IMG/VR virus record: IMGVR_UViG_3300035156_000356
Coordinates: 1-43,689 of that record
Source of the DNA: a virus
Direction: 5' to 3' (one strand)
DNA: 43,689 nucleotides
Below, one piece after another: positions 7,449 to 27,400 of the stretch; position 1 is the first letter of the stretch, and every line of letters starts with the position of its first letter. Below the pieces are notes generated by a model. The model was not told the DNA's origin. It saw only the letters and a program-made list of their open reading frames with translations, and ran no database searches. The position numbers and the translations under genes were made by a program.

Positions 7449-7471
7449 CTTGTAGAGTGGCTTTCTACAAG
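7449..7471. promoter_or_regulatory. late-gene operator palindrome 1 (divergent P/Q and O transcripts)
   Basis: The sequence is CTTGTAGA-GTGGCTT-TCTACAAG with perfect 8-bp arms. It lies between the divergent P and O genes. Read on the minus strand its spacer (AAGCCAC) resembles those of the two other copies, which suggests that it mainly orients toward P. It corresponds in place to the Ogr-dependent PP/PO promoters of P2, whose activator site is described as TGT-N12-ACA. Here TGT and ACA are 13 bases apart. Confidence 0.8.
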
Positions 7472-7569
7472 ACCACCGCCTTGAGAAGCGGCCGGGATCA
7501 GTCCCTTTTCAGCGCGTCAGAGGCCCGATGGGCATCAACCGCCGAACCGAGACCGAGGATCCTGCCGCC

Positions 7570-8400
7570 ATGGGCACCAAGAGCAAATTCTTCCGCGCCT
7601 TTGTCGAAGGCAATACGATCAGCGACGGCCGGAAGATCACGGCGGACATGATCGACCAGATCGTCGAGACCTTCAACGCGGAGACCTATTCGCCGCGCAT
7701 CAACATCGAACATATCGCCGGCTACAGCCCCGAACCCCCGTTCAACGGTTATGGCACCGTTACCGCGGTCAAGGCGCAGACCGACGACATCACGATCGCC
7801 GGCAAGGTCGAGAAGCGCCGCGCGCTCTACATGCAGGTCGACGGCAACGCGCAGCTGGTGAAGCTCGCCAAGGAAGACCAGAAGCCGTTCCCGTCGGTCG
7901 AGCTGACCGACAGCTATGCCGGCTGCGGCAAGGTCGGCGTCGTCGGCCTGGCGTTCACCGATACGCCGGCCAGCATCGCCACCCAGCCACTCAACTTCTC
8001 GCGCAGCGGCCCCGGGACCGTCTTCGGCCTGGCGGACGAAGCCGTGGCGATCGAGTTCGAGGCGGCGCAGATCGAGCCCGCCGGTCTCGCGGCGACCGTA
8101 TCCGCCGCGGTCGCCGCCACCTTCGCCCGGCTCGGGTTCAAGCCGACCGAACCGAAGCCCGAACCCGTCGTGACCCCGCCCGCGCCCGCCAACGACAATG
8201 CCGCGCTCTACACCGCCATGAGCGAGGCCGTGTCCGCCGGTGTCGCCGCCGCGACCGGCCCGATCACCGCCCAGGTGACGAAGCTTGCCGCCGACTTCGC
8301 GGTGCTGACCGGCAAGCTCGACAAGACCGAGCTACCTGGCTTCAGCCGCCAACCGGCCACCGGCGCGGCCGCCGACGCGCAGTACGCGACCGACTGCTGA
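7570..8400 (+). CDS. O: capsid scaffolding protein with maturation protease (P2 gpO family)
   Basis: The protein acts as prohead protease and internal scaffold. With the ATG at 7570 as residue 1, the expected catalytic residues fall at D19 (SDGR), H48 (NIEHIAG) and S109 (PFPSVEL). This nearly coincides with the P2 O triad and fixes the start; the upstream ATG at 7528 adds 14 unsupported residues. The N-terminal SKFFRAFVEGNT matches the family. After residue 150 the chain is Ala/Pro-rich, then forms the helical scaffold part. The 276 residues fit the family. It is the first gene of the rightward late operon. Confidence 0.95.
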   Translation: MGTKSKFFRAFVEGNTISDGRKITADMIDQIVETFNAETYSPRINIEHIAGYSPEPPFNGYGTVTAVKAQTDDITIAGKVEKRRALYMQVDGNAQLVKLAKEDQKPFPSVELTDSYAGCGKVGVVGLAFTDTPASIATQPLNFSRSGPGTVFGLADEAVAIEFEAAQIEPAGLAATVSAAVAATFARLGFKPTEPKPEPVVTPPAPANDNAALYTAMSEAVSAGVAAATGPITAQVTKLAADFAVLTGKLDKTELPGFSRQPATGAAADAQYATDC

Positions 8401-8459
8401 TCCGCCCGCCGCCCCCGCCGACCCCGCCCCCGATTATCGTCCAGCCATAGGACCCCACC

Positions 8460-9512
8460 ATGCAGAACAACACCCGCGTCCTCTTCAACGCGTATATTGG
8501 GCAGGTCGCCCAGCTGAACGGGCTGGACTTCAGCTTCACGGCCGTCCCCGGCGAGATCCGCCAGTTCGCGGTCTCGGCCGTCATCGAACAGAAGTTGCAG
8601 GCCAAGCTGGCGTTGACCAGCGACTTCATGTCGCGGATCAACGTGATCCCGGTGCCGGCCCAGCAGGGCGCGCGTGTCGGGGTCGGCATCAACCGTTCGC
8701 TCGCCAGCCGCACGAACCGCGCCGCGGGCAACCGCCGGACGCCGACCGATCCGACCGGCAGCGACGCGATCGACCAGTATTTCTGCAAGAAGACCGACTA
8801 TGATTACGCGTGGAGCTACGGCCTGCTCGACGCCTGGGTGCATCGTCCGGAATTCCAACAGCTCTGCCGTGACGCCGTCATCATCCAGAAGGCGGCCGAC
8901 GTTATCACGATCGGGTTCAACGGCGTGAACGCCGCGGTGCAGACCGACCGCACCGCCTATCCGCTGCTCCAGGACGTAAACTGGGGCTGGCTCTACAAGA
9001 TGCGGACCTATGCCGGCGCGCGCGTCATGACGCACGGCACCAAGGACAATCTCAAGGTCTACGTGTCGGACACCGGCAACGCCGACTATGTGAACCTCGA
9101 TGCGCTGGTGTTCGACGCCATCCACAACCTGCTCGCCGACCAGTTTCGGACCGCGACCGACCTGGTCGTGATCGTCGGCAGCGACCTGGTCCAGGACAAG
9201 TATTTCAAGATCATCTCAGCGGCAGGCGACAAGGCGACCGAACAGGTGGCGCGCGACATCATCATGTCGAGCCGCCAGCTGGGCGGAAAGCCGACCATGC
9301 AGGTGCCGTTTTTCCCCGCCAACGCCATCATGATCACGAGCCTCAAGAACCTGTCCTATTATTGGCAGATGGGTTCGGCGCGCCGCCACGTGAAGGAAGA
9401 GCCCGCGCTCGACCAGATCGAGAACTATGAAAGCATCAACGACGCCTTCATGGTCGAGGAATACGGCAAGGCCTGCCTGATCGAGAACATCCAGCTGTCG
9501 CCGAAGCTCTAG
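8460..9512 (+). CDS. N: major capsid protein (P2 gpN family)
   Basis: The 350-residue product forms the icosahedral shell, with an HK97-type fold known for the family. It begins with the family signature NTRVLFNAYIGQVAQLNGL. Typical internal segments include INVIPVPAQQGARVGVGINRSLASRTNR, a Tyr/Trp-rich DQYFCKKTDYDYAWSYGLLDAW, and LSYYWQMGSARRHVKEEPALDQIENYESINDAFMVEEYGKACLIEN at the end. It lies between O and M exactly as in P2. In P2 the N-terminal arm is cut by O; the same is expected here. Confidence 0.96.
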   Translation: MQNNTRVLFNAYIGQVAQLNGLDFSFTAVPGEIRQFAVSAVIEQKLQAKLALTSDFMSRINVIPVPAQQGARVGVGINRSLASRTNRAAGNRRTPTDPTGSDAIDQYFCKKTDYDYAWSYGLLDAWVHRPEFQQLCRDAVIIQKAADVITIGFNGVNAAVQTDRTAYPLLQDVNWGWLYKMRTYAGARVMTHGTKDNLKVYVSDTGNADYVNLDALVFDAIHNLLADQFRTATDLVVIVGSDLVQDKYFKIISAAGDKATEQVARDIIMSSRQLGGKPTMQVPFFPANAIMITSLKNLSYYWQMGSARRHVKEEPALDQIENYESINDAFMVEEYGKACLIENIQLSPKL

Positions 9513-9558
9513 TCCGCTTCGCCGATCCAGCCCGCCCCCTCGTTCCAGGACCGATCCC

Positions 9559-10488
9559 ATGAGCCCAGCCCGTCACCATCGTGAACGCCTCGCCGCGCTG
9601 GCGGCAAGCGGCGACTTGGTCGTGGTCGGCGTCGATCTGGCCGAGAAGCCGGACATGACGGCCGTCGTCATCATCGACGGACATTCGCCCGCGCGCCTGC
9701 ACCAGGTGCTGCACGCCGCGGGCGAGGCCGTCGACCTGTCGGAAACCAGCGAGGGCGATCCGCTGGCACGCCCGCCGGCGAACGGGGTCGAGGCGCAGAT
9801 GCGCCTTCGCCTGCGCCACGATCTGCGCCGCCTGAAGGACGTCGCCTCGATCGAGCGCCGCGCGGAGATCAAGCGCGACGAACTGCTGCCGGAATATGCG
9901 GCCTGGGTCGACGGGATCCTGGCCGCCTCCGAAGATGCCGATCATGCGGTCGGCGGAGAGATCCTGCCGACCGTCATGATCTGGCGGATCGATGCCGGCG
10001 ACTATGCCGGCGCGCTCCCTCTCGCCGCCTATGTTCTGCGCCACGATATCCCGCTGCCCGTGCGCTACAATCGGTCGGCGCCGGCGCTGATCGCGGAGGA
10101 GATGGCGGAGGCAGCCTTGAAGGCGCAGGCGGCCGACCAACCCTTCTCGCTCGAGATCCTGGAAGAGGTCGACGCACTCACCGCGCATGCCGACATGCAC
10201 GACGAAATCCGCGCCAAGCTGATGAAGGCGATCGGCGTCGAGCTGATCCGCCAAGCCGACGATCTCGACGCGGCCGGCCCCGAATATCGTGGGCTCACCG
10301 AACGGGCGCTGGCGCCGCTTCGCCGCGCGCAGGCGCTCCACGATCGCAGCGGCGTAAAGGGCCATATCAAGCGGCTGGAGAAGCTGCTGTTGGCGCCCCC
10401 GGTCGCGCCCGAAGCCCCGCCCGCTACCGACGTCACGCCGCCGGCGCCCCCGGCCGACACCGAACAATCCGGCCCACCGGCCGCCTAA
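9559..10488 (+). CDS. M: terminase small subunit/endonuclease (P2 gpM family) with an N-terminal insertion
   Basis: The C-terminal two thirds match P2 M: KRDELLPEYAAWVDGIL, TVMIWRIDAGDYAGALPLAAYVLRHDI, a tract of acidic helices, and SGVKGHIKRLEKLL. The protein has 309 residues, against 247 in P2. The extra length includes a Pro/Ala-rich tail and about 55 residues inserted after the first helix. The insertion starts VVVGVDLAEKPDMTAVVII (residues 21-39), a beta hairpin with the GVDxA...D-x-T pattern of RNase H-fold nucleases. It binds the packaging site with P. The insertion is unusual and is discussed as a finding. Confidence 0.9.
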   Translation: MSPARHHRERLAALAASGDLVVVGVDLAEKPDMTAVVIIDGHSPARLHQVLHAAGEAVDLSETSEGDPLARPPANGVEAQMRLRLRHDLRRLKDVASIERRAEIKRDELLPEYAAWVDGILAASEDADHAVGGEILPTVMIWRIDAGDYAGALPLAAYVLRHDIPLPVRYNRSAPALIAEEMAEAALKAQAADQPFSLEILEEVDALTAHADMHDEIRAKLMKAIGVELIRQADDLDAAGPEYRGLTERALAPLRRAQALHDRSGVKGHIKRLEKLLLAPPVAPEAPPATDVTPPAPPADTEQSGPPAA

Positions 10489-10603
10489 CCAGCTCGCCCC
10501 CCGGCGCTCGGGGACGGATCGCACGACGCGGGAGGAGCCCTTCGGGGCTTGAGGGCCGCGGCACGTCCCGATCCCCACCCCCGTAACTACCAAGGATCGC
10601 ACC

Positions 10604-10816
10604 ATGACGTTCGTCGCCGCCGCCCTGCTGATGCTGTTCATGGCGCTGGCCGCCGTGCAGATCGTCGCCAGCGCTGCCTTGGCCTGCGCGGACCATCCGG
10701 ACATCCCCGCCGATCGCCGCCTGATCCTGCTCTTGTCGATGATCTTCTACATCACGGTCGGGCTCGGCCTGTTCGTGCTGGCCGGTGACCGCTTCGCCCG
10801 GCTGATGCTCGCATGA
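10604..10816 (+). CDS. small two-helix membrane protein
   Basis: The 70-residue product has two hydrophobic segments (AALLMLFMALAAVQIVASAALA and LILLLSMIFYITVGLGLFVLA) joined by a short polar loop (CADHPDIPADRR). The stop overlaps the start of L (ATGA). Its position inside the head operon, ahead of the separate holin gene, suggests a lysis-timing or membrane function, for example an antiholin. I do not recognise a family, and the role is inferred only from topology and place. Confidence 0.65.
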   Translation: MTFVAAALLMLFMALAAVQIVASAALACADHPDIPADRRLILLLSMIFYITVGLGLFVLAGDRFARLMLA

Positions 10817-11316
10817 GCGGGTTCGTCTACAGCGGCGGATCGGACGATTGCGGGACGTCCGTCATTCCACCCGCCGTTCCGATGATCGACGCGCCGATCG
10901 TCAATGACGGCTGGTTGCCGGACATCGACCTGGCACGGCTGCGCCGCGAGATCCGCGTGCGCGAGTCCGTCACCCCGGAGCGGCTGCGATCGGCGGCGGT
11001 CGGCGCGGTGCTGACCGTCAGCAACGACCTGGTCGAATGGCAGGCCGCGCGCCAAGCCGAAGGCCACGCCACGCTCGCCGCCATCCCCGCGCCGCGTCTC
11101 GACGGCCAGAGCCGCAACACCATCCTCTACATCCGCGCCGTCGCCTGTTTCGCCAAGGCCGAGCTGGTCGAGCGCTACCGCGACATCGACACCACCGCCG
11201 CCGGCGACCGCAAGGCCGACGCGCTCGATCAGACGCCCGACGATCTCCGCCGCGACGGCCGCCACGCCATCCGCGATCTGCTCGGCCGCGACCGCACCAC
11301 GGTCGATCTGATCTGA
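10813..11316 (+). CDS. L: head completion/stabilisation protein (P2 gpL family)
   Basis: L stabilises the filled head and prepares it for the tail. The 167-residue protein aligns by eye with P2 L: INDGWLPDID-like region (VNDGWLPDIDLARLRREIRV), VTPERLRSAAVGAVLTVSNDL, the ERYRDIDTTAAGDRKADALDQT block that matches ERYRGVDASAKGDKKADSIDST of P2, and a final IRDLLGRDRTTVDLI. It overlaps the genes on both sides by a few bases, typical of the tightly packed P2 head operon. Confidence 0.93.
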   Translation: MSGFVYSGGSDDCGTSVIPPAVPMIDAPIVNDGWLPDIDLARLRREIRVRESVTPERLRSAAVGAVLTVSNDLVEWQAARQAEGHATLAAIPAPRLDGQSRNTILYIRAVACFAKAELVERYRDIDTTAAGDRKADALDQTPDDLRRDGRHAIRDLLGRDRTTVDLI

Positions 11317-11531
11317 TGGCCGACGATATCCTCCACGCGCGCCAGGGCGACACGCTCGACGAACTCGCCTGGCGCGAACGCGGCCTCGGCCCGGCCGATC
11401 TCCCCGCGCTGTTGGATGCGAACGCCGGGGTGGCCGGGCTGGGCGCGGTGCTGCCGATCGGCACCGCCATCCGCGTGCCGCTCTCCGCTCCGACCACCGC
11501 GACCCGCGCCGTCGTCAATCTCTGGGACTGA
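11316..11531 (+). CDS. X: tail protein X (LysM-like, P2 gpX family)
   Basis: The 71-residue protein has a LysM-like fold: it starts HARQGDTLDELAWRERG and ends with the family pattern PIGTAIRVPLSAP...VNLWD. The ATG overlaps the L stop (TGATG). In P2 X is needed for tail assembly and follows L directly, as here. It probably locates to the tail's distal part and could bind peptidoglycan. Confidence 0.9.
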   Translation: MADDILHARQGDTLDELAWRERGLGPADLPALLDANAGVAGLGAVLPIGTAIRVPLSAPTTATRAVVNLWD

Positions 11532-11535
11532 TCGC

Positions 11536-11880
11536 ATGGCCACCCCCTTCCTCGATCTCGCCGATGCCGCCAAGGCGGCCTGCTCGGCGCTCGCCCCGGC
11601 CGCGCTCGGCTCGCTGGTGGCGCAGCTCTATGAGCGCGGCATGGACTGGCGCGACCGGCTGATCGCCTATGTCGTCGGCATCCTGGTCTCCTATTATGTC
11701 ACGCTCGGCCTGACATCGTGGTTCCATTTCGATCAGTTCGTCAGTCAGGCGGTCGGCTTCGTGCTGGCCATGATCGCCTACAAGGCTGCGCCAAAGTTCG
11801 CCGCCGCGCTGATCGACATGATCGCCTCCCTTCCCACCGTGGTGCGCGACTGGATCGCGCGGAAGAAGGACGCCGCCTGA
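11536..11880 (+). CDS. holin-type membrane protein
   Basis: The 114-residue protein starts with an amphipathic stretch and has two likely transmembrane helices (LIAYVVGILVSYYVTLGLTSW and FVSQAVGFVLAMIAYKAA), followed by a third weaker amphipathic helix and a basic C-terminus (RDWIARKKDAA). Its position between X and the amidase is where P2-like phages keep the holin. It would form the inner-membrane lesion that releases or triggers the endolysin. The start at 11536 follows the X stop by 4 bp. Confidence 0.8.
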   Translation: MATPFLDLADAAKAACSALAPAALGSLVAQLYERGMDWRDRLIAYVVGILVSYYVTLGLTSWFHFDQFVSQAVGFVLAMIAYKAAPKFAAALIDMIASLPTVVRDWIARKKDAA

Positions 11881-12356
11881 TGTCCGTCGCATGGATGAAC
11901 CCGAACGCCATCACCGCCATCACGATCCACTGCGCCGCGACCCCGCGCGGCCGCAACGTGAAGGCGGCGACCATCTCTAAATGGGATACCGCCAAGTTCG
12001 GCCAGGCCAGCTATCATTATGTGATCGAGCTGGACGGCAACGTCGTGCAGACGCTGCGCCACGACCAGCGCGGCGCGCACGTCGGTGGCAAGAACAGCGG
12101 CAATATCGGCATTTGCTATGTGGGCGGTGTCGAGGCGGATGCGAAGACGGCCGCTGACACGCGGACCGCCCCCCAGCGCGAGTCCATGGCGCTGCTGTTG
12201 CAGGCGCTGCGCGTTCAGTTCCCCAAGGCGAAGATCCTCGGCCATCGCGACTGGTCGCCCGACGTCAACGCCAACGGACGCATCGACAAGTTCGAATGGC
12301 TGAAGAACTGCCCGTGCTTCGAGGTCGCCGACCTGGTCAAGGAACTGGCGCTGTGA
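11880..12356 (+). CDS. endolysin: N-acetylmuramoyl-L-alanine amidase (Amidase_2/T7 lysozyme type)
   Basis: This zinc amidase cleaves the bond between muramic acid and L-alanine in peptidoglycan at the end of infection. The 158-residue protein carries the zinc ligands H17 (ITIHCAATP), H122 (LGHRDWSPD) and a cysteine at C144 or C146 (NCPCFEV). Y45-H46 lies in the SYHYVIELDG strand, which is common to the family. It has no signal peptide, so export needs the holin. The ATG overlaps the holin stop by one base (TGATG), and the stop overlaps the next gene (GTGA). Confidence 0.95.
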   Translation: MSVAWMNPNAITAITIHCAATPRGRNVKAATISKWDTAKFGQASYHYVIELDGNVVQTLRHDQRGAHVGGKNSGNIGICYVGGVEADAKTAADTRTAPQRESMALLLQALRVQFPKAKILGHRDWSPDVNANGRIDKFEWLKNCPCFEVADLVKELAL

Positions 12357-12865
12357 TCGTCGCCACCGCCAAATGGGCGTGGGGCCTGGTCGCCGGCCAA
12401 GGCCGCTGGCTGCTGCTGCTAGCGGTCGCCGCCGCCGCTGCCACGCTCTACGCCTGGGGGGCACATGTCCGAGCCGAACGCGACGGCCTGATCGCCTGGG
12501 CGGATCGCACCTGCGCGGCCACCGCCGTCCCCTTCGCCGCCAGCGCCGTCGATCCGGCGACGCCGGTCGGCACGGTGCTGGTCTATCCGCGCGGCACCCG
12601 TTGCGAGGCCGAGATCCGCGCGCTCGTCGCCTTCCGCCACGACGCCGCCATATCCACGGCGCGGCTGCTCGCCGACGCCATCGCCGAACAGGACGCCAAG
12701 CGCACCCGCGACGTCGCCACGGCCGCCCGCGCCGCCCGCGATGCGCGCGCCGCCGCCACCATCATGGAGAATGCCAATGCCAAGGTCGGTCCGGACGATC
12801 GCGTCGGTCGCGATTGGTTCGATGCTCTCAATCGCACTGCCGGGCTGCGCGATGCAGCCCGCTAG
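12353..12865 (+). CDS. Rz-like inner-membrane spanin
   Basis: The GTG at 12353 overlaps the amidase stop. The 170-residue product has one N-terminal transmembrane helix (GRWLLLLAVAAAAATLYAWG), followed by a periplasmic part rich in Ala and Arg with a long predicted coiled coil (SSTARLLADAIAEQDAKRTRDVATAARAARDA region). This is the build of an i-spanin, which together with Rz1 disrupts the outer membrane. The region includes a Cys-containing loop (DRTCAATAV and GTRCEAE). Assignment rests on topology and gene order rather than sequence similarity. Confidence 0.78.
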   Translation: MIVATAKWAWGLVAGQGRWLLLLAVAAAAATLYAWGAHVRAERDGLIAWADRTCAATAVPFAASAVDPATPVGTVLVYPRGTRCEAEIRALVAFRHDAAISTARLLADAIAEQDAKRTRDVATAARAARDARAAATIMENANAKVGPDDRVGRDWFDALNRTAGLRDAAR

Positions 12866-13094
12866 GCCCGCCGCCCCGAGCGCGGTCGCGGTCGCCACGC
12901 CGACCCGCCCGCCGGCCGAGCTGCTCGCCTGCCCGGTCGCACCCGAGGGTTTCCCGCGCGATGCGGAGGCGACCATGCCGCCGGCCGTCCGCTTCGCAGC
13001 GATCCGGCTGGCCACCGCCTATGCCGCGCTCGCCCGCCAGCTCGGCCGCCTGATCGACTGGAACGATCCCGCCTCCTGTCCGGAGGCCAGATGA
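12771..13094 (+). CDS. Rz1-like outer-membrane lipoprotein (o-spanin), nested start in Rz
   Basis: This frame starts inside Rz (ATG at 12771 or 12777) and runs past its end, which is the classic overlapping Rz/Rz1 arrangement. The N-terminus is a lipoprotein signal peptide: basic MPRSVRT, a hydrophobic core and the lipobox LPGC. Mature Rz1-like protein is Pro/Ala-rich at first (MQPARPAAPSAV), as is typical for Rz1, then gains a helical part ending ARQLGRLIDWNDPASC. The product has 107 residues, longer than lambda Rz1. Confidence 0.82.
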   Translation: MPMPRSVRTIASVAIGSMLSIALPGCAMQPARPAAPSAVAVATPTRPPAELLACPVAPEGFPRDAEATMPPAVRFAAIRLATAYAALARQLGRLIDWNDPASCPEAR

Positions 13095-13636
13095 TGGACC
13101 TGTTCGCGATCATCGGTCAGCTGCTCGTCGGCTGGCTCATCGCCGATCTGCTCGGCGGCATCGTCCACTGGTGGGAGGATCGGCTCGGCCGCGAGGACTG
13201 GCCGTGGCTCGGCCGCACCGTGATCGCGCCGAATCGCCGCCATCACCGTGATCCGGTGGCTTTCCTGGCCGGGTCGCTGCTGACCCGCAACCTGTCGACC
13301 TGGATCACGGCGGCGATCGGCGCCGCGCTCTGGCTGCTGCTGCTCGGTCCGTCCGTCGTGCTGCTGGCGGCGGCGATCGGCGCGGCGCTATCGTCGACCG
13401 TGCATGGCTGGACGCATGCGCCCGCCCACGCGCCGCGCCTGGCGCGCGTGCTGCAGCAGATCGGCATCCTCCAGTCGCCCGCCCATCATGCCGGCCACCA
13501 TCGCCCCCCGTCCGACCGGCGCTACTGCGTCCTGACCGACTGGCTCAACCCCGCGCTCGATGCGCTCGGCGCCTGGTCGCGGCTGGAAACGCTGCTCGGC
13601 CGCGCCGGCGTCACCCTCTCTCCCGCGAAAGACTGA
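13091..13636 (+). CDS. CarF/PEDS1 (TMEM189)-type lipid desaturase
   Basis: This 181-residue membrane enzyme belongs to the lipid-desaturase family of plasmanylethanolamine desaturases (CarF in Myxococcus, PEDS1 in animals). These introduce the vinyl-ether bond of plasmalogens. The histidine pattern is complete: H26-W-W-E-D30, H51-H52-R-D-P, H105/H109 and H132-H133-x2-H136-H137. It is followed by RYCVLTDWLNPALDALGAWSRLE, which corresponds to the family's YFCITTGWLNYPLE-x3-FWRRLE. Hydrophobic helices lie at about 5-24, 70-90 and 88-105. The ATG overlaps the Rz1 stop, placing the gene in the late lysis operon. It is shorter than CarF of Myxococcus, and the actual substrate is unknown. Confidence 0.85.
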   Translation: MMDLFAIIGQLLVGWLIADLLGGIVHWWEDRLGREDWPWLGRTVIAPNRRHHRDPVAFLAGSLLTRNLSTWITAAIGAALWLLLLGPSVVLLAAAIGAALSSTVHGWTHAPAHAPRLARVLQQIGILQSPAHHAGHHRPPSDRRYCVLTDWLNPALDALGAWSRLETLLGRAGVTLSPAKD

Positions 13637-13640
13637 ACCC

Positions 13641-16619
13641 ATGGCCTATATGCACGGGATCCAAGTGATCGAAATCGGTGGCAGCGCCACCATCGTCGCA
13701 CCGATCGACGGCGTCGCGCCGATCATCACCTCGCCGCTCACCGCCACCACGCGCGAAAACACCGCGTGGAGCATGACGCTGCTGGCGAACGAGAATGTCA
13801 GCTTCGTCAAGCGCACCGCTGCAGACAGCGCGGCCTTTACGCTGGCGGGCGCGACGCTGTCGCTGCCGGCGCAGGATTATGAGGGCGGGCAGACCGCGTT
13901 CGTCTGCAACCTCGTGGCTATGGACACGGCCGGCAACGTCACCAACTTTGCGGTGACCGTCACCGTGACCGACGTCGATGAAATTGCGCCGCTGATCACG
14001 TCGGCACCGACCGCGACGATCGCAGCCGCGACCGGCTATGCGGTGACGCTGACCGCCAATGAGGCGGTGTCCTTCGAAAAGCGCACCGGCGCGGATGGCG
14101 ACCTGTTCGGGCTGGCCGGCACCACGCTGACGCTGCCCGCGCAGACCTATAATGCTGGCAAGGTCACCTTCACCGTCAACCTGCGCGCGCTCGACGGCGC
14201 CGGCAACGCCACCCTGTTCACCCATGTCGTGACGGTCGCCGCCCCGGCGCCCGTCGTGGATACGCGCCCGCCTGTCATTACCTCCGCGCTGACCGCCACC
14301 GTCGTCGAAAACACCGGCTGGGCGATCACGCTGACCGCCGACGAAGCGGTGACCTTCTCGAAGCGCACGGGAGCCGACAGTGCATCGTTCACCCTCGCTG
14401 GCGCGACCCTGTCGCTGCCCGCGCAGGATTATGAAGGCGGCAAGACCGCCTTCGTCTGCAACCTGACCGCCACCGATGCCGCCGGCAATGCGACCAACTT
14501 CGCGGTGACGGTGAACGTCACGGATCTCGACGAGATCGCGCCGCTGGTCACGTCGGCTGCAACCGCCACGGTCGCGGCCTCCACGGCGTACAGCGTCACC
14601 CTTGCGGCCAATGAGGCGGTGACGTTCGAGAAGCGGACCGGCGCCGACACGGATCTGTTCGGCCTCGCCGGGACCACGTTGACCCTGCCGGCGCAGGCCT
14701 ACAATGCCGGCAAGCCGACCTTCACCGCCAATCTGCGCGCCATCGACGCGGCGGGCAACGCCACGCTGTTCACGCATGTCGTGACGATCGCGACCCCGGC
14801 CGTCACGCCGACGCTGGTCATCACCGGCCCGCTGGCCTTCACCGCCGGCGCGCCGGCCGGGACGCTGGTCTTCAACATCGCAGGCGTTCCGGCCGGGGTG
14901 ACCCCGACGATCACGCCGGCCGATGGCCGCGTCGTCGTTGCCGGCGATGCGACCAACGGGTGGAAGGGCGTTATCGGCCTGACCGTGTCGACGGCCGGCA
15001 CGACCGACTATGCCGTCGCCGCCGCCGGCGCTACCGGTGCAACCGCTCGCGTGGTGGTGACCGCCGCTGCCGCGCGGATGGCGATTGCATCGACCGGCCT
15101 CAACTGGCCGATGGAGCTGGACGCCTATGGGGTGGTCCCCGACAGCGCCACGGCAACCAACGGGACGAAGCGCGAATTCTCGCAAAGCACCACGCTTCTG
15201 AACCATCCCCGCGCCTGCACGGGCGGCTGGTTGCTGGGCGGTAATCGCTATTTCTCGGGCAGCACCAATGGTGACGCGATGTCGACCACCGGCACCAGCC
15301 AGAATACCTATCACCGCGTCGATATCCTCGATCCGGCGACCAGCACGGTCTATCCGGTGCTGCACCCCGCCAATGGTCAGCCGATTGCGGCCGGTAACCC
15401 GTTCGTGTTCGAGGCCGGTGCCATTTTCGCATTCCGCCACGGCGCGCTGCCGGCGGCCGATCTCCATCTCCGGGTCTGGGATCAGGTTCCGATCGGCGGT
15501 CGCCGCCTCAATCACCGCAACCGCCTGATCGCGTCCAAGATCAGCGATGTCGCATTCCATACCGGCACCGGTTCCCCCGCTGCTGTCGGCTCGATCTCGG
15601 CCTATCCGGTGTGCGGCATGTGGTCGCAGGTCGACGACAGCTCTGGCCCATCGGTGGTCGTGGCCGGAGACAGCATCGAACATTATGGGCGGGTCGTGAA
15701 CGGACGCTCGTCCGAAGGTCCGCTGCGCCATCTGCTCACCGACCCGTCCAATGGCGGTGCGGTTCCAGTGGTCGGAAACGTCCGCTACGGGGCGGGACCG
15801 GGGGCGTTCTTCGGACCGAATACCAACGGTCGTGACGCACTGTCGACGTGGGAGGAATTCGGCGTTCTGGTCGGCCAGACCGACCGCTGGCTGTTCCGGC
15901 AGGTGGTCCTGCAGCATTGGCGCAACGGCGTCACCAACTTCATTGCGAACGCAAAAACCGGCATCGGTCGCCTCCGCGCAAAAGACCCGAACATTCAGGT
16001 GTTTGGCGTGACGCCCGACTTCTACGTGCAGGGGCCGTCAAGCGTCCCAGCCGGGCCTGTGCCCACCGGCTCATACGCGACGGTCACCGATCAGGTACTC
16101 ATGGAGCCGAATGGGACCACCGATCGGCAGGCCGTCATCGCATGGTATCGCGGATCTGCCGGGGTCTATGCCGAAGGCTTCATGGAGGGGGTCTTCGACC
16201 ATGACCTGACCCTCAAGAACGCCAGCCCCAACGAGAATCGCTGGCCGGTTCCTGCGGGCGCGAAGGGTAAGCTCAAGGTCGCGACGGTGGCGGGCACCCC
16301 GACCAGCGTCGTCCTCGACTTCAAACCGGAGCTGGGGCACAGCTACGTCATCGACGGCGGGGCCGGTGGAACGCGCGAGTTCATTACGCTGAACGATGGG
16401 ATCGCGCCGGTCGACAACGTGAATGGAACATGGACCTGTCGACTCGCCGGCAACGCGAAGGTCGCGCTCGATCATGCGGTGGACGTCACGATCGAACCGG
16501 TCTCGACGATCGACTGCACGCACGCGACCGAACAGCATGTGCAGGCCAAGATCGCTTCGGCCGGCTGGGCCGCAGGCAAGCAACGGTTGATCGCCCGCGC
16601 TGCCGCCTATGCCGGATGA
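13641..16619 (+). CDS. tailspike/fibre with Ig-like repeats and SGNH hydrolase domain
   Basis: The ATG at 13641 starts a 992-residue protein. Residues 1-26 form a short N-terminus (MAYMHGIQVIEI). Residues 27-390 hold four Ig/cadherin-like units of about 90 residues in A-B-A-B order. Residues 391-485 form a further beta-sandwich. The C-terminal half is an SGNH/GDSL-type esterase: G676-D677-S678 in VVVAGDSIEHYG and a D958-x-x-H961 pair near the end. Such a domain would deacetylate or de-esterify surface polysaccharide during adsorption. It lies between the lysis genes and R, where P2 relatives keep accessory genes. Receptor binding is inferred; esterase identity rests on the two motifs. Confidence 0.8.
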   Translation: MAYMHGIQVIEIGGSATIVAPIDGVAPIITSPLTATTRENTAWSMTLLANENVSFVKRTAADSAAFTLAGATLSLPAQDYEGGQTAFVCNLVAMDTAGNVTNFAVTVTVTDVDEIAPLITSAPTATIAAATGYAVTLTANEAVSFEKRTGADGDLFGLAGTTLTLPAQTYNAGKVTFTVNLRALDGAGNATLFTHVVTVAAPAPVVDTRPPVITSALTATVVENTGWAITLTADEAVTFSKRTGADSASFTLAGATLSLPAQDYEGGKTAFVCNLTATDAAGNATNFAVTVNVTDLDEIAPLVTSAATATVAASTAYSVTLAANEAVTFEKRTGADTDLFGLAGTTLTLPAQAYNAGKPTFTANLRAIDAAGNATLFTHVVTIATPAVTPTLVITGPLAFTAGAPAGTLVFNIAGVPAGVTPTITPADGRVVVAGDATNGWKGVIGLTVSTAGTTDYAVAAAGATGATARVVVTAAAARMAIASTGLNWPMELDAYGVVPDSATATNGTKREFSQSTTLLNHPRACTGGWLLGGNRYFSGSTNGDAMSTTGTSQNTYHRVDILDPATSTVYPVLHPANGQPIAAGNPFVFEAGAIFAFRHGALPAADLHLRVWDQVPIGGRRLNHRNRLIASKISDVAFHTGTGSPAAVGSISAYPVCGMWSQVDDSSGPSVVVAGDSIEHYGRVVNGRSSEGPLRHLLTDPSNGGAVPVVGNVRYGAGPGAFFGPNTNGRDALSTWEEFGVLVGQTDRWLFRQVVLQHWRNGVTNFIANAKTGIGRLRAKDPNIQVFGVTPDFYVQGPSSVPAGPVPTGSYATVTDQVLMEPNGTTDRQAVIAWYRGSAGVYAEGFMEGVFDHDLTLKNASPNENRWPVPAGAKGKLKVATVAGTPTSVVLDFKPELGHSYVIDGGAGGTREFITLNDGIAPVDNVNGTWTCRLAGNAKVALDHAVDVTIEPVSTIDCTHATEQHVQAKIASAGWAAGKQRLIARAAAYAG
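13719..14810 (+). repeat. tandem duplication of a two-domain Ig-like unit (552-bp period)
   Basis: The segments 13719-14270 and 14271-14810 encode the same A-B pair of domains. The A copies share ADSAxFTLAGATLSLPAQDYEGG; the B copies share LFGLAGTTLTLPAQxYNAGK and AGNATLFTHVVT. DNA identity remains high, with silent differences (for example GAGGGCGGGCAG against GAAGGCGGCAAG), so the duplication is moderately recent. Unequal recombination between the copies could change fibre length. Confidence 0.85.
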
Positions 16620-16942
16620 GCTGCGCGATCTGCTCCGAATGCGGCGCGGTGCGCGGCGGCACCCATCGTCGCGGTCCGCTCACCGTCCAGTCCGATCCCC
16701 CCGCCGCCTATTGGCGGGGGGTCAGGATAAAGCTGTCGCCGCGCCAGATCGCAATGCTGGGGCTGCTGGCGCAACGCGGCGATGTGTCGACGCTCGGCCT
16801 GACGCTGGTCGGCACCGGCGAAGATACCAACCCCGACCAGTTGAAGGTCGCGATCTGCAACCTGCGCCGACGTCTGCCCGAGGGCCTGACGATCGAGACG
16901 ATCCGGGCTTGGGGCTATGGCGTGAGGATCTCCGATGAATAA
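16616..16942 (+). CDS. winged-helix (OmpR C-terminal type) DNA-binding protein
   Basis: The 108-residue protein starts with a possible zinc site (CAICSECG). It then contains a winged helix resembling the effector domain of OmpR/PhoB regulators at about 36-105 (KLSPRQIAMLGLLAQRG, then DQLKVAICNLRRRLPEGLTIETIRAWGYGVRI). The LRRRLP...I-x-T-I-R-x-W-G-Y-G-V pattern is characteristic. No receiver domain is present. The ATG overlaps the tailspike stop, and the end overlaps the R start by 8 bp, so it is part of the late structural operon. The target is unknown. Confidence 0.82.
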   Translation: MSCAICSECGAVRGGTHRRGPLTVQSDPPAAYWRGVRIKLSPRQIAMLGLLAQRGDVSTLGLTLVGTGEDTNPDQLKVAICNLRRRLPEGLTIETIRAWGYGVRISDE

Positions 16943-17444: not shown

Positions 17445-17908
17445 GCGACGGCCTCGACCAGCTCGAGGATCTGGCGGGCGCGCTCTTGCGGGGTGTCGCG
17501 CCGGCCGAGCGCCGCACGCTGCTGCGCACCGTGGCGCGCGAGATCGCAAAGAGTCAGCGCACCCGGATCGCCGCCCAGATCCAGCCGGACGGGACACCGT
17601 TTGCCCCGCGCAAGGCCAAAGATCAGCCAAAGGGGCGGCTGCGCCGGAAGGGCCGGATCAAACGCGCCGCAATGTTCCGCAGGCTTCGCCTGGCGAAGCA
17701 TCTGCAGGCGGGCGCCACCGACCGGGAAGCCTGGATCGGTTTCAGCGGTGAGGCGGCGCGCGTGGCGCGTATCCACCAAGAGGGCCGGGAGGATGCACCG
17801 GCGAAGGGTCAGGCCAAGGTTCGCTATGCGAAGCGCGAGATTCTTGGTCTGACCGATACCGAGCGAAAAATCATGCTGGACGCGGTGCTGGCATCAATGC
17901 CAGCCTAA
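17441..17908 (+). CDS. S: virion morphogenesis protein (P2 gpS family)
   Basis: The 155-residue protein belongs to the tail-completion S family. It has an N-terminal helical segment (LEDLAGALLRGVAPAERRTLLRTVAREIAKSQRTRIAAQIQPDGTPFAPRK) and a basic middle (KGRLRRKGRIKRAAMFRRLRLAKHL). The C-terminal part contains a VARIHQEGREDAP segment followed by RYAKREILGLT, the usual end of the family. It is the last structural gene of this operon; the DUF4145 cargo gene follows 26 bp later. Confidence 0.93.
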   Translation: MSDGLDQLEDLAGALLRGVAPAERRTLLRTVAREIAKSQRTRIAAQIQPDGTPFAPRKAKDQPKGRLRRKGRIKRAAMFRRLRLAKHLQAGATDREAWIGFSGEAARVARIHQEGREDAPAKGQAKVRYAKREILGLTDTERKIMLDAVLASMPA

Positions 17909-17934: not shown

Positions 17935-18654
17935 ATGCCGAAGAAGACAAGCGCCCATTGCCCAAATTGCAACGGCAAGCGCTCCTGCAAAATTCACGGC
18001 TCCACCACTCAGCGTTTTGAGCAGGACTTTTTCTGGGAGGAAACAGTCTACAGCCTTCTTGAATGCCGAGGATGCGAAACCGTCTTCTTCCATCAGAGCG
18101 CCACTAATAGCGAGGAATGGGAGGATGAGTATGATCATGCCGAAGAACGATCTTATGCTTGCCACACGCCTACCGTGCAGACGTTTCCACATCCAGGGGC
18201 GCGGGAGCGGCCGGAGTGGGTTGCCCAGCTGGAAGCGACTGACCATCAGCTGAGAGTCATTCTTGAACAAATGTATTTAGCCTCCGAGGGCGGGTCTGCC
18301 ATCCTCGCTGCCATAGGGCTGCGAACCGCTCTCGATCGTGCCACTGAACTTCTTGAGATTGATACTGAGCTCAGCTTTAGGAAGAAGCTCGACAAATTGC
18401 TGGAGACAGGTCGTATAGGTCAGAACGAGCTCGAGCAGCTTGAGGTTGTAACTGATGCAGGGAATGCGGCCGCCCATCGTGGTTGGTCGCCAGATGCCGA
18501 TCAGCTTAGAAAGCTGATCGGCGCCATGGAGCTGTTCCTCCGCAAGGCGTTCATCGAGGGAGGCAGCGCACTGGAAATGAAAGGGTCTATCCCACGACGG
18601 TCCAAGGCTCTACCGGCCCCGGATAAGATGAGCTCTCGGAAGACGCCCTTGTAG
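17935..18654 (+). CDS. DUF4145 domain protein, cargo gene
   Basis: The 239-residue protein starts with a zinc-ribbon-like pair of knuckles (CPNC at 9-12 and ECRGC in the forties), followed by an acidic segment. It ends in the helical DUF4145 domain (SAILAAIGLRTALDRATELLEI, KLDKLLETGRIGQNELEQLEVVTDAGNAAAHRGW). DUF4145 proteins often accompany restriction-modification or other defence genes, but a biochemical role is not established. Base composition is visibly lower in GC than in the neighbouring structural genes, which suggests separate acquisition. Its TAG stop lies inside the late operator at 18648-18670. Confidence 0.8.
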   Translation: MPKKTSAHCPNCNGKRSCKIHGSTTQRFEQDFFWEETVYSLLECRGCETVFFHQSATNSEEWEDEYDHAEERSYACHTPTVQTFPHPGARERPEWVAQLEATDHQLRVILEQMYLASEGGSAILAAIGLRTALDRATELLEIDTELSFRKKLDKLLETGRIGQNELEQLEVVTDAGNAAAHRGWSPDADQLRKLIGAMELFLRKAFIEGGSALEMKGSIPRRSKALPAPDKMSSRKTPL

Positions 18655-18670
18655 AAACCCACTCTACAAG
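18648..18670. promoter_or_regulatory. late-gene operator palindrome 2 (upstream of J)
   Basis: The sequence is CTTGTAGA-AACCCAC-TCTACAAG with perfect 8-bp arms. It starts at the last codons of the DUF4145 gene (TTG TAG) and is centred 56 bp before the J start codon. It is identical in arms and spacing to the copies at 7449 and 27378. Ogr-like activation of the J-to-DUF4376 unit is inferred. Confidence 0.82.
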
Positions 18671-18714
18671 GCTGGCATATAGCCCACGAGCCCCGCCCCG
18701 GCCGACATAGGGCG

Positions 18715-19605
18715 GTGGCCGACCCCGCATTCCTATCTCCCGCGCTCGATCTGTCGCGGCTCCCTGCACCCGCGGTGGTGCAGCCGCTCTCCTATGACCG
18801 GATCCGCGCCGACCTTATTGCAGCCTTACAGGCGCGCCTGCCGAGCTTCGACGCGACGGTCGCGTCCGATCCGGTCATCAAGCTGCTCGAAATCTCCGCC
18901 TACCGCGAGCTGCTGTTGCGCGGCGCCATCAACGACGCCGCGCGCTCTGTCCTGCTCGCTTTCGCCACCGGCGCCGATCTCGACCAGCTCGGCGCCTTCT
19001 ACGGCGTCGAACGCCTGGTCATCATCCCCGCCACCGATCGCGCCCCCGCCATCCTGGAAAGCGACGCGGATCTGCGCACGCGGATCCAGCTCGCCCCCGA
19101 GACGCTCGCCGCGGCGGGCCTGACCGGCGGCGGCTACCGCGCCACCGCGCTGCGCGTCGCCCCATCCGTGCGCGACGTCGCCGTTATCAAGCGTGCTGCG
19201 GGCCGTGTCGATGTCGTGCTGCTCGGCCGCGACGGCGACGGTGCTGTCCCCACTTTGACTGTCCAGCGCGTTTATCAGGCCCTAGCGGCCGACGACGGCG
19301 CCCAACTCACCGATATCGTCTCGGTGCGCTCGGCCGAGATCCTGCCCTATGCGCGCAACGTCCGCCTGCGCATTCGCCGCGGCCCCGATCCCGCCATCGT
19401 CGGCGCCGCGGCCGAGGCCGCGATCCGCCTCTATGCGACCGACCGCCACCGCGTTGGGCACACCGTCTATGCGCAGATGCTGGAATCTGCGGCATCGGTC
19501 GGCGGCGTCGAGCAGGCGATCGTCGATGGCGGCGATGTCGTCCCCGCGCCGCACCAGGCGCCGTACCTCACCGGCCTGACGGTCACCGTCGAGATTGCGG
19601 CATGA
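18715..19605 (+). CDS. J: baseplate assembly protein J (P2 gpJ family)
   Basis: J is a wedge component of the contractile-tail baseplate. The 296-residue protein starts at a GTG with family-typical LSRLPAPAVVQPLSYDRIRADLIAAL. It contains DPVIKLLEISAYRELLLRGAINDAARSVLLAFATGADLDQLGAFYGVER, the most conserved part of the J family, and a C-terminal domain ending LTGLTVTVEIAA. There is only a weak AGGG three bases before the start, which leaves open a leaderless mRNA from the late promoter just upstream. Confidence 0.95.
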   Translation: MADPAFLSPALDLSRLPAPAVVQPLSYDRIRADLIAALQARLPSFDATVASDPVIKLLEISAYRELLLRGAINDAARSVLLAFATGADLDQLGAFYGVERLVIIPATDRAPAILESDADLRTRIQLAPETLAAAGLTGGGYRATALRVAPSVRDVAVIKRAAGRVDVVLLGRDGDGAVPTLTVQRVYQALAADDGAQLTDIVSVRSAEILPYARNVRLRIRRGPDPAIVGAAAEAAIRLYATDRHRVGHTVYAQMLESAASVGGVEQAIVDGGDVVPAPHQAPYLTGLTVTVEIAA

Positions 19606-20795
19606 CCGCCTCGCTGCTCCCGCCCAATTGCACCGCGCTCGAGACCGCGATCGAGGGGACGATCGCCGAGCGCCTGGCGCTTCCCGCCGACCGCATCGCG
19701 GCGGTCTGGAACCCGGACAGCTGCCCGGCCGGCCTGCTCGGCCATCTCGCCTGGGGGCTGTCGGTCGATCTGTGGGACGATCGCTGGCCGGAAACGCAGA
19801 AGCGCGACGTCTGTCGTAATGCGCTGAAGCTGCACAGCCTCAAGACCACGCTCGCCGGGATCAAGGCGCATGTCGCGCTGACCGGATCGCAGCTGCTGCG
19901 CGCGGTTCGCCCGCCCGCCACCGGCTTCCTCTATGCGGCGATGACCGACGCGCAGCGCGCCGCCTGGCTCGACGGCCTGCCGCAGGTCCGGATCTATCCT
20001 TTCGTCCGCACCGTCATCGCCAGCCACCGCATCTTCGCCACCGGCCCGGCCGGCCGCTACTTCCACGGCCGCGGCCATCTCCGCCCGAACCGCGGCATCG
20101 ACCTCACCGGCATCCGCGCCACTTTCTATGACCAGGGCGCCGAGCGCGCGATCCGCTACGAGACCCCCGACGCGACCGCGATCCGGCTGCTGATCGCGCG
20201 CACCGCGCGCCGTGGCTGGCACGGTGCGGGCGCGATCGGCGGCTATCTGACGCGCAGCCAGGCCGCGAAGGGTGTGGTCACGCTGCGCCTGGGCGACGAT
20301 GCCGGGTCCTTCGCGGTCGAGGCCGGGCTCGATCCGGTCGACGTCCGCCCGACCCGCGTCGCACAGCCGCGCACCGCGCCCGCCGCGCGCTCCTTCTTCG
20401 GCCCGCGCGCCCGCGCCCGCTTCCTCCGCACCAGCCATGCCCCGTTCCTGGTCTATGACCGGGTCGCGCTCCACGCCCCCGACCGGATGGGCGCACGCCG
20501 CCACACGCGCAGCTTCCACGGCGCCGGCCGTTTCGGCATGGCGCCGTTCACCGCGGAACTGCGGGTCGCGGTCCCGCTCCAGCGGCCGGTGCGCCGCTCG
20601 GGCAAGTGGCACGGCGCCGGCTTCCGCGCTGCCGCCGATCTCGGCCGGCTCGACCAAACGATCGAGGCGGTGCGCGTCAGCAAGGCGTTCCGCGACACCA
20701 TCCTGATCGACACGGCCGTCCACGGCCCGGTCCAGTTCGGTGGGGGCCTCCGCTTCGGCGACTTCACCTTCGGCGAAACCAGAAAGGCCGCATAA
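19602..20795 (+). CDS. I: tail protein I (P2 gpI family) with a long C-terminal extension
   Basis: The first 140 residues match the P2 I baseplate family (LLPPNCTALETAIEG, WNPDSCPAGLLGHLAWGLSVDLWDDRWPETQKRDV, KLHSLKTTLAGIKAHVALTG). The product has 397 residues, against 176 in P2. The extension is Arg/Gly-rich and repeats the motif [FW]HG[AR]G at residues 154, 206, 305 and 336. It probably extends from the wedge to interact with fibre proteins encoded downstream. The ATG overlaps the J stop (ATGA). Confidence 0.9.
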   Translation: MTASLLPPNCTALETAIEGTIAERLALPADRIAAVWNPDSCPAGLLGHLAWGLSVDLWDDRWPETQKRDVCRNALKLHSLKTTLAGIKAHVALTGSQLLRAVRPPATGFLYAAMTDAQRAAWLDGLPQVRIYPFVRTVIASHRIFATGPAGRYFHGRGHLRPNRGIDLTGIRATFYDQGAERAIRYETPDATAIRLLIARTARRGWHGAGAIGGYLTRSQAAKGVVTLRLGDDAGSFAVEAGLDPVDVRPTRVAQPRTAPAARSFFGPRARARFLRTSHAPFLVYDRVALHAPDRMGARRHTRSFHGAGRFGMAPFTAELRVAVPLQRPVRRSGKWHGAGFRAAADLGRLDQTIEAVRVSKAFRDTILIDTAVHGPVQFGGGLRFGDFTFGETRKAA

Positions 20796-23047
20796 TGCAA
20801 AGCCGCGTCATCTTCCGTGACGGCATGGACAATGATCCCGCCGACTATAATCAGCTGCAGGATTTCGCGCAGGGATCGATGGACGATCTCGTCGCGGACG
20901 CGGTGACCGCCGATCGCAAATATGCGGGTTTCACCGCCGCGCGCAGCAGCGCGACCGAGGTGACCGTCCAGCCTGGCCGGCTTTATTCGGCCGGCAAGGT
21001 CTTCGCCCGCGACGCCGCGTTCGTGAAGGACTTCACCACCTCGCTACCGATCGCGACCAAGAAGCATGTCCTGATCGTGATCTTCGGCCAGGAGAGCGAG
21101 ACCGACGCGCGTCCGCGCGAATTCCTGATCAACGAGGAAACCGGCGCCTCCGAACCGCGCGTCGTCGCTATGGAGCTGGCGCGGCTCTGCAACATCAACG
21201 TCGCCTCCGGCCAGGAGAGCCCCGACCCGATCGATCCCGTCCTCGACGCCGGCGTCCTGGCGGTCGCGCGGGTCGTGCTGACCCCGACCGGCGTCGACCG
21301 CGTCGACATGATCGCCGGCAACCGCCTCGACAGCGTCGCCGACGTCGCCGCCCGCGCCGCCAGCCTCGAGGCGTTCCAGGCCAAGGCCGGCCCTCAGATC
21401 GTGGCGCTCGGCTCCGACATCGCCACCTTGAAGGTCGGCGTCGCGAACAATGTCAACACCGCCGCCTTCGGCCGGCTGCTCGCGCGCATGGCGACGCTGG
21501 AGGAGCAGGCCGGCATCCCGGTCGCGGCGTCCGACAGCGATGCGGACTTCTTCCTGGACAAGGAGGAATCCGATCTCGCCCATCCCAATTTCCGCGCGAA
21601 GATCGAGGAAGGCATCCGCTTCGCCGACGAGGATGTAAAGGACAGCCAACTCGCCGTCTTCGACGCGCTCAACCCGCGCGCCAAGGTCACCGGCGACGTG
21701 CTGTTCCCGGCCTATGCGCGCGAGCTGCGCATGAATGTCGGCCCGCGCCAGGCCGAAACCCAGATCGCCGCCTATAGCTACCAGAGCCACCAGATGGTTC
21801 AGCGCATGATGTCGCGGACCCGCACGCGCTACGGCGAGGAATTCACCGTCTGCACCAACAGTGGTTGGTGGGGTGCGGTCACCGATCGCTACATCCCCGA
21901 GACCTTCGAGCGCAACGGCGAGCTGTTCCAGACCGTCAAGGTCGATTGGGACGGCCCCGCGCATGGCTGGGTACGCGTCCGCCGGCTGTGGGTAGACGTG
22001 TATCAGGAACCCTATTGGGACTATACCACCGTCAACCATGCCGTGCCCGGCGCGCAGGTCGCCGAGACCTTCCTCAACGCCAATGATCTCTGGCTCGACG
22101 CGGTCGGCCTGACCTTTACCCGCCTGGCCGCGAACGGCGGCATCACGCTGGCGCTGTGCGAAACCGATCGCGGCGCGCCGGCGCTCGACAAGGTGATCTC
22201 GGTCACCACCGTCCCGCGCGCCAGCCTGCTCGTCAATGCCGAGACCGTCATCCCGGTCCAGCCGGTCTATCTCGAAGGCGGCAAGCGCTATGCGCTGGTC
22301 GTGATCTCGGCCGCCGATCACTGGATCGCGACGACGCAAGGGACCAATTTCCCGCAGGGCACGCTCTTCTACGTGCTCGACGGCGCCTATCAGCAAGGGG
22401 ACGGCACCCGCGATCTGTGCTTCTCGCTCTACGCGGCCAAGTTCACCGCGGCGCGGGCCGTCATCGACATGGCGCCGCTGTCGCTCGCCGGTGGCATGAC
22501 CGCGATCGACATCCTGGCCGAGGCGATCATCCCGAAATCGACCGACCTCACCTATGAGGTCCAGGTCGGCGGGATCTGGACGCCGCTGGCGCGGACCGAG
22601 CAGTCGGTGCTGGGCGCCGGCGGCAACATCCCGCCGCTCGTGCCGCTCCGCCTGGTCATGACCGGCACCCCCGACGTCATGCCCGCGGTAAAACTCACCG
22701 GCTCACGCGTCCGCGTCTCGCGGCCGCGGCTCAGCCTCACCCATGTCTCGATGCCGCGGCTGCTGCCCGGCGCGGGCTCGGCGCAGATCCGCGTGATCGG
22801 CCGGCTCGAATATTTTGAGGCGGGCCATCACACCGCCACCGCGAAGCTGCGCACCGGTGCAGGTTACGCCACGCTCGTATCGCCCTCATCCTTCTCCGAC
22901 GTCGTCGCTGACGACGGTTCGATCGAGCGGACATGGGTCTTTAACCTCGGCGCTGCCGTGCCGTCGTACAAAATCCAGTTCGACGCGACCACGGACTCCG
23001 CGCTCCGCACCTTCCACTTCGGTTGGCGCAAAGACTTCGCCCTTTAA
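20795..23047 (+). CDS. DUF4815-type baseplate/tail-fibre protein (position of P2 H)
   Basis: The 750-residue protein starts FRDGMDNDPADYNQLQDF, which I associate with DUF4815 proteins. In those, an N-terminal beta domain attaches to the baseplate. A helical region follows at about residues 185-290 (VADVAARAASLEAFQAKAG, FGRLLARMATLEEQAG), with a long beta-rich C-terminal half (TRTRYGEEFTVCTNSGWWGAVTDRYIP, LRTFHFGWRKDFAL). Position after I corresponds to the fibre gene H. The start overlaps the I stop (TAATG). Function as fibre base is inferred from place and family. Confidence 0.8.
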   Translation: MQSRVIFRDGMDNDPADYNQLQDFAQGSMDDLVADAVTADRKYAGFTAARSSATEVTVQPGRLYSAGKVFARDAAFVKDFTTSLPIATKKHVLIVIFGQESETDARPREFLINEETGASEPRVVAMELARLCNINVASGQESPDPIDPVLDAGVLAVARVVLTPTGVDRVDMIAGNRLDSVADVAARAASLEAFQAKAGPQIVALGSDIATLKVGVANNVNTAAFGRLLARMATLEEQAGIPVAASDSDADFFLDKEESDLAHPNFRAKIEEGIRFADEDVKDSQLAVFDALNPRAKVTGDVLFPAYARELRMNVGPRQAETQIAAYSYQSHQMVQRMMSRTRTRYGEEFTVCTNSGWWGAVTDRYIPETFERNGELFQTVKVDWDGPAHGWVRVRRLWVDVYQEPYWDYTTVNHAVPGAQVAETFLNANDLWLDAVGLTFTRLAANGGITLALCETDRGAPALDKVISVTTVPRASLLVNAETVIPVQPVYLEGGKRYALVVISAADHWIATTQGTNFPQGTLFYVLDGAYQQGDGTRDLCFSLYAAKFTAARAVIDMAPLSLAGGMTAIDILAEAIIPKSTDLTYEVQVGGIWTPLARTEQSVLGAGGNIPPLVPLRLVMTGTPDVMPAVKLTGSRVRVSRPRLSLTHVSMPRLLPGAGSAQIRVIGRLEYFEAGHHTATAKLRTGAGYATLVSPSSFSDVVADDGSIERTWVFNLGAAVPSYKIQFDATTDSALRTFHFGWRKDFAL

Positions 23048-26824: not shown

Positions 26825-26830
26825 GCGGAG

Positions 26831-26836: not shown

Positions 26837-26852
26837 ACGTCAGAAATGCGGA

Positions 26853-26882
26853 AGCGGAAGAGCGTTACAGCGCTCTCCCGCT
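26853..26882. repeat. long imperfect hairpin between divergent cargo operons
   Basis: AGCGGAAGAGCG (26853-26864) and CGCTCTCCCGCT (26871-26882) form a 12-bp stem with one mismatch around TTACAG. The stem has no U-tract. It lies between the RHH promoter and the rightward small gene and could be a terminator, an insulator or a repressor site. Confidence 0.45.
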
Positions 26883-26909
26883 CCTAACTCGAACCACGGA
26901 GCTTACCCG

Positions 26910-27128
26910 ATGGCCCAAGCTGAGCGCAGCCATAGCATAGTCTTGCCCGAATGGCAGGACGCGGACCTCCTCCGCGACACGCCCGGTTGTGCGATCGGGT
27001 GCGCACGCTGCACCATCCGCTGCGCGGTGGTGACGGGCGCCCGCGACGAACTGATCGAACGCCTGCACCGCGCCGAGCTGGCCGTGCTTGCGGTCCGACC
27101 GCTTCGCATCCCGTCGCGGGTGCATTGA
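26910..27128 (+). CDS. 72-residue cysteine-containing protein of unknown function
   Basis: The product contains CAIGCARCTIRC (about residues 27-38), a possible metal-binding cluster, followed by a helix (GARDELIERLHRAELAVLAV). The family is unknown. It lies in the cargo island just after the hairpin and one base before the next gene, with which it is probably cotranscribed. Confidence 0.5.
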   Translation: MAQAERSHSIVLPEWQDADLLRDTPGCAIGCARCTIRCAVVTGARDELIERLHRAELAVLAVRPLRIPSRVH

Positions 27129-27129
27129 A

Positions 27130-27384
27130 ATGCGGTTGCTGGCCACCGAGGATATCAGCCCGGTCGATCGATCGCGGGACGTCATCGATCCGGACCCGCA
27201 TGCGCGCCTGATCACCGTGCGCGATGCGATGCGGGGACTGGCCGACCTGCTCCATGACGGCGGCACGGTGACCTGGTGCGGCGAAGCCCCGGTCTCGCGC
27301 GGCGATCTCTCCGCTCTGATGGCGGTCCTGGGCGATCAGCTTGAGGCCGCGATCGATGCTCCTCCGAACCGTCGAGCCTTGTAG
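27130..27384 (+). CDS. 84-residue protein of unknown function
   Basis: The ATG at 27130 follows the previous stop by one base. An upstream in-frame ATG at 27088 exists but overlaps that gene. The protein is acidic with a helical centre (VRDAMRGLADLLHDGGTVTW, SALMAVLGDQLEAAIDA). I do not recognise it. As in the DUF4145 gene, the last two codons (TTG TAG) lie inside a late operator. Confidence 0.55.
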   Translation: MRLLATEDISPVDRSRDVIDPDPHARLITVRDAMRGLADLLHDGGTVTWCGEAPVSRGDLSALMAVLGDQLEAAIDAPPNRRAL

Positions 27385-27400
27385 AAACGCATTCTACAAG
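27378..27400. promoter_or_regulatory. late-gene operator palindrome 3 (upstream of V)
   Basis: The sequence is CTTGTAGA-AACGCAT-TCTACAAG with perfect 8-bp arms, centred 58 bp before the V start codon. Arms and spacing are identical to the copies at 7449 and 18648. It probably drives the V-W-FI-FII-E-T-U-D unit. Confidence 0.82.

Follow-up and report, generated by a model that had tools for sequence, protein, structure and literature searches.

The window, by which we mean the whole stretch of viral DNA analysed (43,689 nucleotides of the IMG/VR record IMGVR_UViG_3300035156_000356), carries a P2-like phage, a prophage of Sphingomonas type, according to the assignment of its genes with PHROGs and Pfam. 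The P2 structural gene set is present and in order, as in Peduoviridae-like phages, with the genes J to H standing apart from V to D. The late operons are listed in Table 1; the O operon also encodes the terminase small subunit and the completion genes. On the 3' side of D follow the genes for a CI-like repressor, a Cro-like protein, an HTH protein, an Ogr/Delta protein and a ParB-like protein, in this order. At the left edge lies a SpoU rRNA methylase gene (1-744), and a tRNA-Tyr (888-973) adjoins the integrase. The tRNA and the methylase gene point to the host flank of an integrated prophage.

Within the late O operon, positions 13091-13636 encode a protein with a lipid desaturase domain (PF10520, E 8e-37). 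A related stretch was seen in a single one of the relatives read (L133). The same operon contains a gene for a 1019-aa protein (13560-16619) with weak matches to Ig-like domains and an internal repeat of 300 nt. Parts of this protein were also found in G001, G009 and others.

Table 1. Late operons, dyads, promoter-like elements and regulatory genes in the window.
Feature	Coordinates	Strand	Remarks
P-Q operon	4553..7401	-	terminase large subunit P (5614-7401), portal Q (4553-5986, start uncertain)
O operon	7528..17908	+	scaffold O, capsid N, M, L, X, lysis genes, R, S
J operon	18715..23047	+	baseplate wedge J, I, tail protein
V operon	27447..34875	+	baseplate V, sheath, tube, E, tape measure, U, D
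Dyad 1, CTTGTAGAGTGGCTTTCTACAAG	7449..7471	.	exact match; common to the divergent P-Q and O operons
Dyad 2, CTTGTAGAAACCCACTCTACAAG	18648..18670	.	exact match; ahead of J-I-H
Dyad 3, CTTGTAGAAACGCATTCTACAAG	27378..27400	.	exact match; ahead of V-FI-FII-E-T-U-D
-10-like hexamer CTAGGT, predicted P promoter	7411..7416	-	site end +33 to +38; relatives keep GGCTAGGT at this distance
-10-like hexamer CCTTTT, predicted O promoter	7504..7509	+	follows CTTGAGAAG at 7480-7488
-10-like hexamer CGACAT, predicted J promoter	18703..18708	+	fixed-distance element in relatives
-10-like hexamer CATGGT, predicted V promoter	27433..27438	+	fixed-distance element in relatives
Small HTH protein	37689..38186	+	overlaps start of ogr; phrog_38866; HTH_23 E 0.0006, below Pfam cut-off
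Ogr/Delta-type zinc-finger activator (predicted)	38183..38521	+	112 aa, GTG start; PF04606; phrog_603

The earlier note on this DNA had described three perfect palindromes, each just before a late transcription unit (P-Q/O, J and V), and held that they could not have arisen by chance. The observation was confirmed. The dyad CTTGTAGA-N7-TCTACAAG has exactly three exact matches in the window, its 8-bp arms are perfect at all three and the TGT and ACA are spaced by 13 bases. No fourth dyad was found in the window with up to three mismatches, where dinucleotide shuffles gave an expectation of 0.02 sites. The half-site CTTGTAGA has a single further copy in the window beyond those in the dyads, at 8992 on the minus strand. 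The gene calls agree with the position before the late units: for dyad 1, the distance from its centre to the gene start is 59 bp for P and 68 bp for O; for dyad 2 it is 56 bp to the start of J, and for dyad 3 it is 58 bp to the start of V. A dyad is found ahead of every late operon, including a site shared by P and O, as in a P2-type late regulon.

Relatives were collected by a search with the O protein, which yielded 18 viral contigs and three Sphingomonas genomes; a direct search of the viral contigs with Ogr found no relatives. Ogr matches were present in 35 of 401 Sphingomonadaceae genomes, and the late regions were read in about 20 of these prophages. In almost every relative with readable regions ahead of P/O, J and V, each of them contained a dyad, in most cases with its centre and the start codon about 50-75 bp apart, and dyad 1 was kept among the relatives read. 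The automatic detection of the three sites gave no result or an uncertain one for G057, G372, G303, G020, G105 (J site), G189, G346 and the phages Smp131 and KS14. The sites of the first five were read by hand; the J region of G105 was cut in the first reading, and its J site was seen in a fuller region. The distant prophages G189 and G346 had no clear dyad set. In scans of 12 phages, each with the consensus of its own sites and with three mismatches allowed, every phage showed three sites, and two of them had one further match with three mismatches.

The arms were identical or nearly identical within a phage and different across phages. The types observed were CTTGTAGA, CGTGTAGA, GGTGTCGG, CTTGTGGA, CTTGTGAA (N14, with one extra base), a GGGTAGA-type without TGT, which is that of G009, ATTTGGA and, in pZM36, TTCCCAT. 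All sites of one phage change their arms jointly, sometimes with the loss of TGT/ACA. A scan of the viral contigs with TTGTAGA-N7-TCTACAA was set aside as evidence because many apparently unrelated contigs were among the matches listed.

The exact site of the window was then located in host genomes. It occurred in 3 of 201 Sphingomonadaceae genomes, with three copies in G019 (Sphingomonas pseudosanguinis DSM 19512), three in G105 and one in G055, and all three genomes had an Ogr match. The copies in G019 and G105 were all at P/O, J and V of a P2-like prophage. The single copy in G055 is on a contig of a fragmented genome. The earlier note had named many copies outside prophage late regions as a finding that would speak against the regulon; among the 201 genomes, none was seen in the two where the copies could be placed, G019 and G105.

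The candidate for the protein that binds these sites is the Ogr-like protein. It scored 44.0 bits against the Pfam family Ogr_Delta, above the curated cut-off of 26.3, and matched the PHROG transcriptional regulator family with an E value of 3e-14. Two pairs of putative zinc-ligand cysteines (C14, C17, C40 and C43) are invariant in the Ogr alignment. The cysteines of P2 Ogr have been described as CX2CX22CX4C (PMC3931495). The window protein reads CX2CX22CX2C and does not have the exact P2 motif, so the claim of the earlier note that it shows the Ogr metal-ligand spacing fails at the second pair. This pair is CX2C in the window and in G009 only, CX4C in most relatives and CX5C in G028 and G375. 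Since the spacing varies across relatives, it does not define the family. A search by sequence for solved structures related to Ogr gave no convincing relative, and how Ogr/Delta proteins read DNA is therefore hard to judge from structure.

The assignment of the sites to Ogr was analysed by covariation. For 29 phages with Ogr and sites, the distances between half-site profiles were compared with protein distances in a Mantel test, in which phylogenetic dependence is not fully removed and some sites were curated by eye from the DNA alone. The distances of the site arms followed those of Ogr with r 0.64 (p 0.0002). The correlation persisted when P, J, V, FI (sheath), FII (tube), D or the HTH protein was controlled for singly (partial r 0.37-0.62, p <=0.0004). 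Conversely, none of these seven control proteins explained the sites once Ogr was given, with V the nearest (r 0.17, p 0.07). The window (G000) and G009 are a pair found in nature that shows this: their terminase P proteins are 96% identical, Ogr is about 54% identical and the arms differ at all three sites. The relation between arms and Ogr is not one-to-one, since G012 and G105 have the arms of the window, yet their Ogr cores are only about half identical to that of the window, and the Ogr of G019, with the same arms, is also quite different. A scan for associations between Ogr residues and arm bases gave weak leads only. R24 of Ogr is lost in both phages with the most divergent core, pZM36 and G064, which are two cases only.

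The covariation data also bear on the neighbouring HTH protein, which might occupy the dyads as a dimer while Ogr has its site of action elsewhere or is no more than a partner. HTH dimers are suited to perfect dyads, and an HTH homologue adjoins ogr in most relatives. However, the HTH protein did not follow the sites when Ogr was given (partial r -0.04, p 0.68), whereas Ogr did so when the HTH protein was given (r 0.49, p 0.0002). Moreover, P2 has Ogr and no HTH-type gene beside it, no HTH homologue was detected in pZM36 with its three sites, and in G105 the homologue is about 4 kb away from ogr. We therefore consider binding by the HTH protein improbable.

It is more doubtful still that the dyads are operators of the CI-like or Cro-like repressor that silence the late genes in the lysogen. 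The phage does encode a CI-like S24 repressor and a Cro-like protein, and perfect palindromes are common for repressor operators, but no dyad is present between the CI and Cro genes, a place at which a repressor of this kind would act too, and the dyads are at an activator position upstream of conserved -35/-10-like elements. Least probable of all, and hardly to be expected, are RNA hairpins, terminators or sites of DNA packaging or recombination: inverted repeats can form hairpins, but no T run follows the dyads, terminator scans list none there, and a protein-binding operator agrees with the constant spacing to four start codons and with the matched arm changes at the three sites of a phage.

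The region between the dyads and the genes was compared for promoter-like elements. On the 3' side of the dyads, the relatives keep GGCTAGGT for P, CTTGAGAAG and CCCTGT for O, CGACAT for J and CATGGT for V, each at a fixed distance. CTTGAGAAG is present in 12 of the 13 relatives compared, and its TTGAGA is -35-like. A T at site +38 is conserved in P, O and J, and no such columns appeared in position shuffles; the -10 match of V is weak. These fixed elements fit a -10 element about 45 bp from the dyad centre. A consensus scan of the intervals 6900-8000 and 16600-28000 detected no sigma-70 promoter near the sites.

Phage P2, as annotated in its record, has its transcription starts at 55-57 bp from the activator sites, and transcription of V begins right at the start codon of this gene. 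When this geometry is applied to the window, the predicted leaders have 2-4 nt for P, 11-13 nt for O, about 0-1 nt for J and 1-3 nt for V. By this transfer from P2, the mRNAs of P, J and V should start no more than about 4 nt from the start codon and have no leader or hardly any. The -10-like elements agree with predicted starts about 55 bp from the site centre.

Taken together, our results make it very probable that the dyads are the operators of a P2-type late regulon activated by the Ogr protein encoded at 38183-38521. This reading is well supported by the conservation of the sites, their position, their exclusivity in host genomes and their covariation with Ogr. The earlier note had proposed the same regulon, and these four lines of evidence support it; the special geometry and the metal-ligand spacing that the note had put forward do not hold. 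We infer binding, activation and start sites from the sequences. The Ogr protein would sit symmetrically on each dyad, whose centre would lie about 55 bp upstream of the start. Each late start would have a weak -10 element, and the bound Ogr would recruit the host RNA polymerase. The P/O dyad would act both ways, so that three sites could give four promoters (P-Q, O..S, J.. and V..D).

The system is a variant of the P2 late regulon and would work like it. Like the window, P2, with its promoters PP, PO, PV and PF, has one site shared by P and O and an activator of the Ogr family; its sites are at the distance from the starts that is predicted for the window. It differs in the consensus TGT-N12-ACA, where the window has N13 with perfect 8-bp arms, in the late units V..G and F..D instead of J.. 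and V..D, in the position of ogr after D instead of in the early region, and in the CX4C of its Ogr instead of CX2C. The Stenotrophomonas phage Smp131 has the late units P-Q, O, J.. and V..D, a shared P/O site and an ogr homologue (PMC3931495). These are the late blocks of the window, and the layout is thus already published. In contrast to the window, the Smp131 sites were reported as TGT-N12-ACA-like (PMC3931495); our scan of this phage recovered no clear dyad set.

The Ralstonia phages phiRSY1 and phiRSA1 have TGTTGT-N13-ACAACA at 50-90 bp before the start codons, with four late promoter regions and no sigma-70 promoter reported (PMC5694545); the N13 spacing of phiRSA1 was taken from the phiRSY1 paper (PMC5694545). 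They have N13 in common with the window and differ in the TGTTGT arms. The Burkholderia phage KS14 has TGT-N13-ACA ahead of P/O and 55.5 bp before V, with other arms and the V-W-J order of P2. The earlier note had set the geometry of the window apart from P2. The 13 bases against 12 stand, but this is not special, as N13 is found in KS14 and phiRSY1; its presence in KS14 makes the spacing a subtype and not a mark of the family. The Zymomonas phage-plasmid pZM36 has three dyads at P/O, J and V, an Ogr protein and the same late blocks, whereas its arms, TTCCCATCG, are without TGT/ACA and unrelated to those of the window.

Beyond the window, we see about even chances for a broader proposal on the sphingomonad P2-like phages. 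Ogr and all late operators would have switched specificity jointly several times, with the position kept and the arms changed, giving orthogonal regulons; R24 and other residues would read the TTGT core, and the P, J and V mRNAs would be leaderless. As far as the literature consulted shows, coordinated arm switches and predicted leaderless late mRNAs are new in this group. With the 29 natural Ogr-operator pairs, including the two phages with 96% identical P and different arms, the rules of recognition can be put to the test. Should the pairs prove orthogonal, they could also predict which prophages can or cannot activate late genes of one another in trans, and which satellites might take advantage of them.

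Several further features were observed in the window. A gene for a DUF4145 protein (17935-18654) lies in the interval from S to the J site, with its end overlapping the J dyad, and has no match in any relative read. A strong inverted repeat with 11-bp arms (18496-18522) precedes the J dyad by about 125 bp. Directly ahead of the V site, a D12-class adenine DNA methyltransferase is encoded (25296-26126), which in several relatives is found beyond Q instead. A GapR-like DNA-binding protein (41550-41858; PF10073, E 2e-31) is kept in the relatives and in pZM36.
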